Part shown: in pieces, positions 47,996-49,915 of the stretch
Layout: each line of letters opens with the position of its first letter
How positions within the stretch are numbered: the stretch's first letter is position 1
Assembly (NCBI RefSeq): GCF_010668805.1
Contig: NZ_WUFT01000003.1
Span: forward strand, 1-64,000
DNA: 64,000 nt
Direction: 5' to 3'
From: Rhizobium phaseoli
Lineage (GTDB): Bacteria; Pseudomonadota; Alphaproteobacteria; Rhizobiales; Rhizobiaceae
Notes under the pieces: generated by a model
Databases searched by the model: none
Told to the model about the DNA's origin: nothing
The model's input: the letters and a program-made list of their open reading frames with translations, nothing else
Translations under genes and position numbers: made by a program

Positions 47996-48787
47996 TCATT
48001 TCAGAATGGTAAAACCCTGTGCCGTGAAGAAGGCGGCTGCCTTGTCGGATTTCAGGAAGTCGAGATAGGCTGCGGCGTCCGGGTTCTTGCTCTCGGCAAG
48101 AATGGCGATCGGATAGATGATCGGCGGATGGGAATCGGCCGGGAAGGTGCCGACGACGGCGACACCCTTATCGGCTGCGGCGTCGGTCTGGTAGACGATG
48201 CCGTAAGGCGCTTCGCCGCGGGAGACGAGGGCGAGTGCGGCACGGACGCTTTCGGCGCCGGCGACCTTGCTTTCCACAGATTTCCAGACGCCGAGTTTGT
48301 CGAGCGCGGCCATGCCGTATTTGCCGGCCGGAACCGATTTCAGTTCACCCATGGCCAGCTTGCCGTCGCCGAGAAGCCCGGCAAGATCGAAGCCCTGCTT
48401 GATTTCGACCGGTTTTGCCTTGTCCTTTTCGGCAACGAGCACGATGCGATTACCAAGCAGGTTCGAGCGGCTATCGGCCTTGATGAGGTTTTTCTTGGCG
48501 AGGTAATCCATCCAGGCAAGGTCGGCCGAAATGAAGATATCGGCCGGTGCCGCGTTTTCGATCTGCTTGGCGAGTGCCCCACTGGCAGCATAGGAGGCGA
48601 CGGCTTCCTTGCCGCTTTCCTTGGCCCAGGCGGCATTGGCGGCATCGAGCGCATCCTTGAGGCTCGCCGCCGCAAAGACGGTAAGCTTTTCGGCTGCGGC
48701 GGCGGGTGCCGGAAGCGCTGCGGCGCCGAGCCACAGGGCTGATATCGCGGCGGTTGCCAGTTTCATCCATTGGCGGCGGTTCTGCAT
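47996..48787 (-). CDS. modA: Molybdate-binding periplasmic protein
   Basis: A 263-residue protein. A signal peptide ends at AAAAEK. LTVFAAASLKDALD near residue 35 is the ModA opening, and ASGALAKQIENGAP-like ASGALAKQIENAAPADIFISA and the GEAPYGIVYQTDA segments hold the oxyanion. It delivers molybdate to ModBC for nitrogenase and other Mo enzymes. GGGGA precedes the ATG. Confidence 0.95.
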   Translation of the reverse strand: MQNRRQWMKLATAAISALWLGAAALPAPAAAAEKLTVFAAASLKDALDAANAAWAKESGKEAVASYAASGALAKQIENAAPADIFISADLAWMDYLAKKNLIKADSRSNLLGNRIVLVAEKDKAKPVEIKQGFDLAGLLGDGKLAMGELKSVPAGKYGMAALDKLGVWKSVESKVAGAESVRAALALVSRGEAPYGIVYQTDAAADKGVAVVGTFPADSHPPIIYPIAILAESKNPDAAAYLDFLKSDKAAAFFTAQGFTILK

Positions 48788-48806: not shown

Positions 48807-48830
48807 GAAATATTGTGACGAATATAACGG
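48807..48830 (-). promoter_or_regulatory. Candidate Mo-box (ModE operator) before modA
   Basis: On the minus strand CGTTATAT, eight bases, ATATTTCG: an imperfect match to the Mo-box CGnTATAT-N6/8-ATATAnCG. A second CGTTATAT half site lies at 48865-48872 with a weak partner 8 bases away (GGATGTAT). Both lie 20-85 bases before the modA ATG. The stretch from here to about 49070 holds nothing else recognisable. Confidence 0.45.
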
Positions 48831-49070
48831 GTGGCGCGCCTTAGCTAGGGATGTATCTAGAAAAATATAACGTACCGACCGCTGTCCGCAGAGAGCCCCG
48901 TGCTTCCAGCATTCGATAGGCGCATGGCTTCAAGCAAATGAGACCTATAGAGCAGCAATATCCAGCCGGCACTTTGCAAACCTCAGGAATTCTCTGGAGG
49001 CAGAGCCTGCGCCATTAATTCTGCCGATAAAAACGGCAACGCCGAAGCGACATGTTCGGACAGAATTGCA

Positions 49071-49097
49071 ATTGGTGCATTGCTGCAATGCACCAAT
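49071..49097. promoter_or_regulatory. Perfect 27-bp palindrome upstream of the small RNA
   Basis: Arms ATTGGTGCATTGC and GCAATGCACCAAT, each 13 bases, around a single T. It ends about 30 bases before the likely start of the small RNA, where an operator would be expected. It has no U tract and no transcribed gene before it, so an operator is favoured over a terminator. The binding protein is unknown. Confidence 0.65.
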
Positions 49098-49127
49098 CGA
49101 TATTCACCTTCGTGCGGAATATGATAA

Positions 49128-49251
49128 AACATGAGCATCGAAGCGGCGAACTCCTCCTCCCATAGCCGCTCGATAGGGTCGACAACACTCCTCCTCCCAG
49201 TTGTCGATCGAGTTTATAAGCCCGACGGATCCTCCCCCGTCGGGCTTTCTC
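49128..49251 (+). ncRNA. Alpha-r14-type small RNA with anti-Shine-Dalgarno loops
   Basis: Three hairpins in a row: GCGGC/GCCGC (49142-49169), TCGACAAC/GTTGTCGA (about 49179-49207) and AGCCCGACGG/CCGTCGGGCT (49219-49246). Loops 1 and 2 carry CCTCCTCCC (49153-49161 and 49190-49198), and loop 3 carries CCTCCC. This is the layout of the rhizobial alpha-r14 family (NfeR1 in Sinorhizobium), which pairs with ribosome sites of many mRNAs. A TATGAT -10 lies near 49120 with a weak -35 17 bases upstream. The start is inferred to within about 10 bases. No protein is credible here. Confidence 0.85.
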
Positions 49252-49257
49252 GTTTCT
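49219..49257 (+). terminator. Terminator of the small RNA
   Basis: A 10-base perfect stem with an 8-base loop, then TTTCTCGTTTC. It is the third hairpin of the small RNA. Confidence 0.88.
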
Positions 49258-49279: not shown

Positions 49280-49915
49280 CTATTCGGAGCTGCCCGGCAG
49301 CGAGCCGTTGCGGATTGCCGTCGAGCTCAGGCCGGAGCGCGGCCCGTGGATGAAGGTCCAGGCCGGCGCCGGCTTCTTCCAGAGAATGCGCGCGTCGTCC
49401 TCGTCAACTCGGGCGAAATCGAAGGTCCGCGTCATCTTCGAGGAGAGGTAGGAGAGCGTCGCGCCCGGCCGGTCGATCACGGCGATCGGGAAGGTGCGGA
49501 CGATTTCCTGCCACTTCTGCCATTTGTGGAAGGTCTGCAGGCCGTCGGCGCCCATGATCCAGATGAAATGCACATGCGGATTGCGGGCCTTGACGCGGGC
49601 GAGCGTATTGGCGGTGTAGCTGACGCCGAGCGTCTGTTCGAAGGCGGTGACCTTGACGCGCGGATCGGCGGCGACACGCTCGCTTTCGGCAATGCGCTCG
49701 GCCAGCGGCGCCAGCTGGTTGCGGCTCTTCAGCGGATTTCCGGGGGTGACCATCCACCAGAGCTGGTCGAGGCCGAGCCGCTTGATGGCGATCTCGGCGA
49801 CCAGCGCGTGGCCCTGGTGCGGCGGATTGAACGAACCGCCGAACAGACCGACGACCATGCCGCGCTCGCTGTGCGGCATGCGGAGATAATGCCGGTCCAA
49901 ACTCTCCGCCGTCAC
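49280..49915 (-). CDS. nadD: Nicotinate-nucleotide adenylyltransferase
   Basis: About 211 residues. VGLFGGSFNPPHQGH near residue 22 is the nucleotidyltransferase GxFDPxHxGH-type site, and GPRSGLSSTAIRNG near the end is the ISSTxIR signature. It makes deamido-NAD from nicotinate mononucleotide and ATP. A GTG at 49915 starts right after the proA stop; an ATG at 49879 is the alternative. Last gene of the obgE-proB-proA-nadD run. Confidence 0.94.
   Translation of the reverse strand: MTAESLDRHYLRMPHSERGMVVGLFGGSFNPPHQGHALVAEIAIKRLGLDQLWWMVTPGNPLKSRNQLAPLAERIAESERVAADPRVKVTAFEQTLGVSYTANTLARVKARNPHVHFIWIMGADGLQTFHKWQKWQEIVRTFPIAVIDRPGATLSYLSSKMTRTFDFARVDEDDARILWKKPAPAWTFIHGPRSGLSSTAIRNGSLPGSSE

Follow-up and report, generated by a model that had tools for sequence, protein, structure and literature searches.

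An ar14 small RNA between modA and nadD in Rhizobium phaseoli with promoter motifs arranged as in NfeR1

In the window, that is, the whole stretch of 64,000 nt of Rhizobium phaseoli DNA that was analysed, we identified between modA and nadD a small RNA gene that is an ordinary, soundly confirmed member of the known ar14 family. Upstream of this gene lies what appears to be the NtrC/LsrB promoter layout of NfeR1, an ar14 RNA of Sinorhizobium meliloti, which some members of the genus Rhizobium thus carry on another paralogue and at another locus. Our preferred reading, to which we assign a probability of about 0.7, is that the gene encodes a trans-acting ar14 sRNA that would be activated by LsrB and repressed by NtrC, whose loops would cover Shine-Dalgarno (SD) sites and which would serve as a stand-in for NfeR1 in this lineage. 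In a literature search that did not reach several relevant sources, no paper dealt with the nadD copy; it may already be among the Rhizobium NfeR1 homologues aligned in supplementary Fig. S1 of PMC10746234. The features of the locus are collected in Table 1.

Table 1. Features of the sRNA locus and its neighbours, in window coordinates
Feature	Position	Strand	Basis and remarks
modA, molybdate-binding protein, divergent left neighbour	47996..48787	-	ORF, order as in Rhizobium sp. NLR16a
NtrC-type motif TGC-N11-GCA (TGCCGATAAAAACGGCA)	49022..49038	+	-115 from start 49137, -111 from 49133; motif only
LsrB/VtlR-type box: TGCA-N6-GCAT (49067-49080) overlapping GCAT-N3-TG-N3-T (49077-49089)	49067..49089	+	motif only
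27-base perfect palindrome ATTGGTGCATTGCTGCAATGCACCAAT, contains the GCAT-N3-TG-N3-T box	49071..49097		sequence reading
Likely core promoter: TTCACC (49103-49108), 16 nt, extended -10 TGaTAAAAC (49122-49130)	49103..49130	+	alignment, inference
ar14 small RNA, likely mature transcript of ~116 nt	49137..49252	+	RF02344 110.1 bits, fold z -6.76, covariation
Hairpin 1, loop with anti-SD motif CTCCTCCTCCC at 49151-49161	49137..49174	+	fold, motif search
Hairpin 2, loop with CTCCTCCTCCC at 49188-49198	49177..49209	+	fold, motif search
Hairpin 3, terminator-like, shorter loop TCCTCCC at 49230-49236	49218..49247	+	fold, terminator scan
nadD, convergent right neighbour, stop at 49280, start 49879 or 49858	49280..49879	-	ORF, annotated homologue

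A structurally conserved ar14 RNA gene beside nadD

An earlier note on this DNA had proposed an alpha-r14-type RNA at this place and a covariance-model search over the window as a check. The Rfam model RF02344 (ar14) matched positions 49133-49252 of the + strand along model positions 1-123 with 110.1 bits, well above the gathering score of 58.8 (E 1.7e-19), and RF02345 was absent from the over-cut-off Rfam matches in the window. Folding of the + strand gave a minimum free energy of -50.9 kcal/mol, compared to a mean of -29.2 (sd 3.2) for shuffled sequences, and none of 200 shuffles was as good as the native sequence, which bears out the proposed series of three consecutive stem-loops; the reverse strand reached a z of -3.23 as against -6.76. 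Each hairpin presents an unpaired loop of the CCUCCUCCC type. The full motif stands in its exact form in loops 1 and 2, as had been noted, and the third loop, UCCUCCC, is the shorter one. The two exact matches to CTCCTCCTCCC in the 64 kb window are both in this sRNA, with 0.05 expected by chance, and the full third-loop motif CTCCTCCC was found in 38 of the 60 syntenic nadD loci. Hairpin 3 was called as a terminator-like site in the scan, and the U tract described behind its stem (AAGCCC...GGGCTT) is present but imperfect (TCTCGTTTCT). The 5′ end, placed at 49128 in the note, is likelier to lie at 49133 (Rfam model) to 49137 (promoter reading).

To assess conservation of the pairing, we aligned 37 sequences out of the 60 syntenic ones. 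Results showed that 97.9% of the pair cells were standard pairs and that 14 of the 31 pairs had changed on both sides, with compensatory changes in all three helices (6 of 10 pairs in helix 1, 5 of 10 in helix 2 and 3 of 11 in helix 3, where 8 were invariant). None of 500 shuffles reached 97.9% paired cells or 14 of 31 pairs, a count that is not a probability because the 37 sequences are related, and sliding the partners by 1-3 columns lowered the paired cells to 20-51%. Membership of the alpha-r14 family is thus supported by both the RF02344 score and the compensatory changes. Failure of the family model together with unconserved pairing had been named as grounds against the proposal; the model passes and the pairing is kept among the 37 syntenic sequences. 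Structure, loop motif and the presence of several copies per genome are common to the window sRNA and the RNAs of RF02344 (SmelA075 group; 'cuckoo' RNAs), and we found no difference that excludes the former from the family.

The position of the gene between modA and nadD, as given in the note, was confirmed by the ORFs, with modA divergent and the 3′ end of nadD convergent. A joint search for the sRNA and nadD matched in 60 of 60 genomes sampled from the genus, and an ar14-like triple motif was present at nadD in every one of them. In G004 and G055 the two matches form separate pieces with a gap of at most a few hundred bases, and among the first 30 syntenic loci L087 stands in for L028, whose match covered nadD only. 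The triple motif was found at none of 28 other-genus nadD loci of a family-wide sample, within the stretches read. Among the matches listed for 26 nadD copies of named genomes, modA lay within 0.4 kb of the LsrB/VtlR-type box in 21 and farther off in two (L176, L211), and it was not found in three, where the upstream stretch is short. Since the order modA - ar14 - nadD is common across the genomes of the genus, with R. tropici and R. rhizogenes among them, the comparison indicates that it is old within the genus.

Promoter motifs upstream of the nadD copy

The strongest upstream conservation in an alignment of 29 syntenic loci corresponds to GCATTGCTGCAATGCA, which stands at a fixed distance from the RNA, fits GCAT-N3-TG-N3-T and also contains TGCA-N6-GCAT. 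GCAT-N3-TG-N3-T has been reported as the binding box of VtlR, with confirmation for Brucella abortus and as a hypothesis for Agrobacterium tumefaciens (PMC7486931), and as the LsrB-binding consensus (PMC8844928), while TGCA-N6-GCAT and TGC-N11-GCA are described as the LsrB and NtrC motifs of the NfeR1 promoter, PnfeR1, where the two regulators bind and act at such motifs (PMC10746234). In the window the LsrB/VtlR-type box extends from -70 to -48 if 49137 is the start. Only the inner part of the palindrome ATTGGTGCATTGCTGCAATGCACCAAT is common to the relatives in the alignment. Of the likely core promoter, a loose extended -10 was present in 38 and a loose -35 in 51 of the 60 nadD loci. Because a consensus promoter scan prefers other hexamers, TCGATA-N17-TATGAT (49097-49125), the exact start and all distances counted from it are unsure by about four bases. 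A sigma-54 promoter, considered on reading the sequence, was discarded since the spacing is unfit.

We compared the 60 nadD loci with 29 paralogues drawn from ten genomes. GCAT-N3-TG-N3-T was present at this place in 58/60 nadD loci and 19/29 paralogues, the strict NtrC-type motif in 33/60 and 1/29 (Fisher p 1.1e-6, kinship ignored), and the two motifs at a spacing of 54-55 in 32/60 and 0/29. When one mismatch was allowed, the NtrC-type motif appeared in 39/60 nadD loci but also in 8/29 paralogues; this form was therefore dropped as evidence, and only the strict one discriminates. A scan of named genomes (at least 117 stretches, 80 of them taken as loci) with a pattern demanding the box found the NtrC-type motif in 15 of 26 nadD copies vs 1 of 55 other copies, among the matches listed; the named set overlaps with the genus genomes, e.g. 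R. tropici IGFRI and G031:C2, so that the two comparisons are not independent.

The strict NtrC-type motif was absent from 27 of the 60 nadD loci, R. tropici and R. rhizogenes among them, and NtrC control would therefore be at most lineage-specific. The one-mismatch form was missing as well in 21 of these 27, most of which share the block (A)AGAAGCGTTTTTTGGGCA where other loci have the NtrC-type motif. Many of the loci L037, L038 and L057-L085, all without the motif, have a GACGTAACGTTACGAATCGT-like block further upstream.

An exact search of the 6.6 Mb genome for the 16-mer TGCATTGCTGCAWTGC found it only twice, each time 57 bases ahead of an ar14 start, and its reversed control gave 0 matches. 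A match with two mismatches precedes an AbcR-type gene, with the box at -61. GCAT-N3-TG-N3-T stands at -61 before two of the three AbcR-type (ar15) copies (L054 and L056, on C64 and C88), and the tandem neighbour L055 is without it. AbcR1/AbcR2 (ar15, RF02345) thus have an LsrB/VtlR-type box at a similar distance, whereas their RNA family differs from that of the window sRNA.

Comparison with NfeR1 and the tig locus

NfeR1 (Smr14C2, SmelC397), described as Hfq-independent and induced by nitrogen stress, by salt and in nodules, is the founding ar14 member; it belongs to the same Rfam family as the window sRNA and likewise has three hairpins with anti-SD loops, its third loop, unlike that of the window sRNA, not being shortened. 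In S. meliloti we recognised NfeR1 (L042) by TGCATCACTTGCAT and found the same three promoter elements at nearly the same positions as in the window. Counted from the homologous ATCG start, the LsrB-type motif lies at -70 in the window and -71 in NfeR1 and the NtrC-type motif at -115 in both, close to the reported positions of the LsrB (-72 to -57) and NtrC (-116 to -100) motifs (PMC10746234). The distance from the start of the NtrC-type motif to the GCAT box, which reads GCATTGCTGCAAT in the window and GCATAGGTGCCAT in NfeR1, is 55 and 54 bases, respectively.

The surroundings and the RNA itself differ. The S. meliloti locus has the order tig - ar14 - NfeR1 - DUF1127 - DUF1127 - trmFO, with NfeR1 as the second gene of an ar14 tandem, and the window locus, modA - ar14 - nadD, fails a test for these neighbours (tig/DUF1127/trmFO). 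An unrooted tree of 56 RNAs (27 tig-type, 29 nadD plus L001-type; 121 columns; four-hairpin copies excluded) split the tig-type copies, NfeR1 included, from the nadD and L001-type copies with a support of 100/99. Hence the assignment to the alpha-r14/NfeR1 family made in the earlier note holds at the level of the family, and both place and RNA sequence indicate that the window gene is not NfeR1, although its promoter resembles that of NfeR1. Promoter likeness and gene descent part ways, because an NfeR1-type promoter is combined with another locus and another branch of the RNA tree.

We also examined the tig locus. In this genome it holds one full ar14 copy, the first of the tandem, without box, and the NfeR1 copy is missing. 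The tig loci of seven other-genus genomes and of S. meliloti hold two or three ar14 copies each, and in 8/8 the box is missing from the copy adjoining tig and present in the copies after it. The strict NtrC-type motif was found at a spacing of 54 bases in three of these eight loci, S. meliloti counted, and at other distances in two; three were without it in the stretch scanned. The seven loci come from 16 regions read (two others had ar14 elsewhere and seven were without ar14 by the pattern), which were picked by a combined-motif family-wide search that matched at least 120 of 199 genomes and is too noisy to count. In other genomes of the genus a second motif pair was not found within ~280-300 bases after nine tig-like copies, assigned by tree and not by synteny, and the tig locus, sought in the 80 named loci, was not found there. 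We considered, and rejected, the idea that the tig locus of this genome retains part of the NfeR1 promoter, as the LsrB-type box concerned precedes DUF1127, likewise in S. meliloti.

Metarhizobium album (L145, NZ_QFBC01000001.1) has a tandem of two ar14 genes, each with the box. The second has TGC-N11-GCA at -110, the sole non-nadD case in the named set among the matches listed, and a tblastn search did not place L145 at the tig locus.

Other ar14 copies

The distance to other copies, left open by the earlier note, could be established: ar14 gave eight matches on six contigs of this genome at E <= 0.001, six of the eight being over the cut-off, with one pair ~0.6 kb apart on C135 and another ~318 kb apart on C81. 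The number of matches per genome was 3-9 in 31 genomes of the genus, among the matches listed, and which copy to study is not obvious. In S. meliloti, according to a review, Northern blots reliably detect a transcript for only one of the six copies; a paralogue may therefore be nearly silent.

Two copies of this genome, L004 (G000:C91:20863-20986) and L005 (C168:246570-246693), form four hairpins, the additional one lying at the 5′ end and bearing the same motif in its loop; the Rfam model spans just the final three. Measured from the Rfam start, the LsrB-type box of these two copies stands at -93, a distance that would shrink to about -56 were the additional hairpin part of the RNA. This four-hairpin form is already known as SmelA099 (PMC3927594); RNAs of this type share the loop motif with the window sRNA, which has three hairpins.

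Predicted targets

NfeR1 is reported to repress ntrB by base-pairing that depends on its loops and to connect nodulation with nitrogen status in S. meliloti; the loop has been proposed to be conserved in alpha-rhizobia (PMC10746234). By analogy, the loops of the window sRNA should cover SD sites. Loop 2 forms a duplex of -16.9 kcal/mol with the start region of ntrB in this genome, and the GGGAGG before the ntrB start was kept in 28 of 30 genus loci read, out of 60 matched. Among 46 S. meliloti start regions, ntrB ranked third and seven were at -15 or lower; sequence alone therefore does not define the targets. An extended pairing between an arm of hairpin 2 and UCGACA before the ntrB SD was observed in this genome but is not claimed, since this site varies among relatives (e.g. 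L289, L294, L296). Cis-regulation of the neighbours was also discarded, because the start regions of modA and nadD pair weakly (best -11.6 and -6.3 kcal/mol).

Proposed mechanism and alternative explanations

Our data show the family membership of the RNA and the conservation of its structure, its place and its promoter motifs at the published spacing; we infer that the gene is transcribed, that LsrB and NtrC bind its promoter, that its RNA pairs with targets and that it takes the role of NfeR1. Sigma-70 RNA polymerase would be recruited by LsrB (VtlR) sitting some 60-70 bases upstream, and under ample nitrogen NtrC, at ~115 bases upstream, would prevent LsrB from binding, as has been published for S. 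meliloti NfeR1. In the resulting RNA of ~116 nt, two complete CUCCUCC loops and a shortened one would be exposed, pair with the SD sites of many mRNAs and block their translation, with ntrB and transporter genes likely among them. In this genome, whose own NfeR1 copy is missing from the tig/trmFO locus, the sRNA probably stands in for NfeR1.

Alternatively, the gene could encode an RNA of the general stress response that LsrB alone controls, the NtrC-type motif being a palindrome that arose by chance and was inherited within one species group. The box in 58/60 nadD loci, in 19/29 paralogues and at -61 before two of three ar15 copies would fit such an RNA, as would the 27/60 nadD loci missing the strict motif. 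We nevertheless consider this unlikely, given that 32 loci keep the spacing of 54-55 bases though the surrounding sequence differs a good deal and that NfeR1 has a spacing of 54 as well. More doubtful still is an action mainly through protein binding, for instance by a small DUF1127 protein, or as a general decoy for SD-bearing mRNAs, rather than as an antisense RNA with specific gene targets. DUF1127 genes do adjoin other ar14 copies, and in pairing strength ntrB is equalled by many other start regions; in Rhodobacter, CcaF1 is said to be an RNA-binding protein linked to CcsR RNAs, and we take it to be a DUF1127 protein and the CcsR RNAs to be linked to the cuckoo RNAs. In Rhizobium sp. NLR16a, however, no DUF1127 gene is annotated between modA and the end of obgE, and the repression of ntrB by NfeR1 is described as base-pairing dependent on the loops (PMC10746234).

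That the element acts in cis, as terminator or 3′ regulatory element of nadD or as leader of a coding gene, is very improbable. The RNA is convergent with nadD, its third hairpin is a terminator and a 106-aa ORF starts with ATG at 49131, but the + strand folds far better (z -6.8 vs -3.2), the variation tracks the RNA pairing and the locus has conserved promoter elements of its own. Because an ATG stands near that place in just 3/60 syntenic loci, the ORF was also rejected as a coding gene.

Control of an anti-SD RNA by LsrB and NtrC may have changed hands within the Rhizobiaceae, a reading to which we give slightly less than an even chance: it would act on the second tandem copy at tig/trmFO in Sinorhizobium and relatives and on a different paralogue, the one beside nadD, in one group of Rhizobium, the NfeR1 copy at tig being absent from this genome. 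Two histories would account for it: an NtrC site arose a second time with unchanged spacing, or different paralogues have retained an ancient arrangement. If true, the R. tropici/R. rhizogenes group would run its nadD copy without NtrC. For species like R. phaseoli and R. anhuiense our data point to the nadD copy, and we predict that the copy at NfeR1's own locus would be the wrong one to study in such species and that Rhizobium groups with and without the NtrC-type motif would differ.

Additional observations

Two DUF1127 genes lie beside ar14 at L269 of this genome (5662-5775 and 5187-5327, - strand), and DUF1127 genes also adjoin ar14 in S. meliloti and at L004. The LsrB-type box precedes the first DUF1127 gene in this genome and in S. 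meliloti. Behind the first gene in this genome there is a TCCTCCC hairpin that corresponds to a weak ar14 match (L008, 32.7 bits, under the cut-off), an arrangement of gene and hairpin reminiscent of ccaF1-CcsR in Rhodobacter. The record CP090106.1, labelled S. meliloti plasmid pSymB, is 3.7 Mb long and contains chromosomal genes such as obgE, tig, ntrC and hfq. Finally, two AATATAACG words are found upstream of modA, at window positions 48813-48880; they are possibly part of a ModE-type site.
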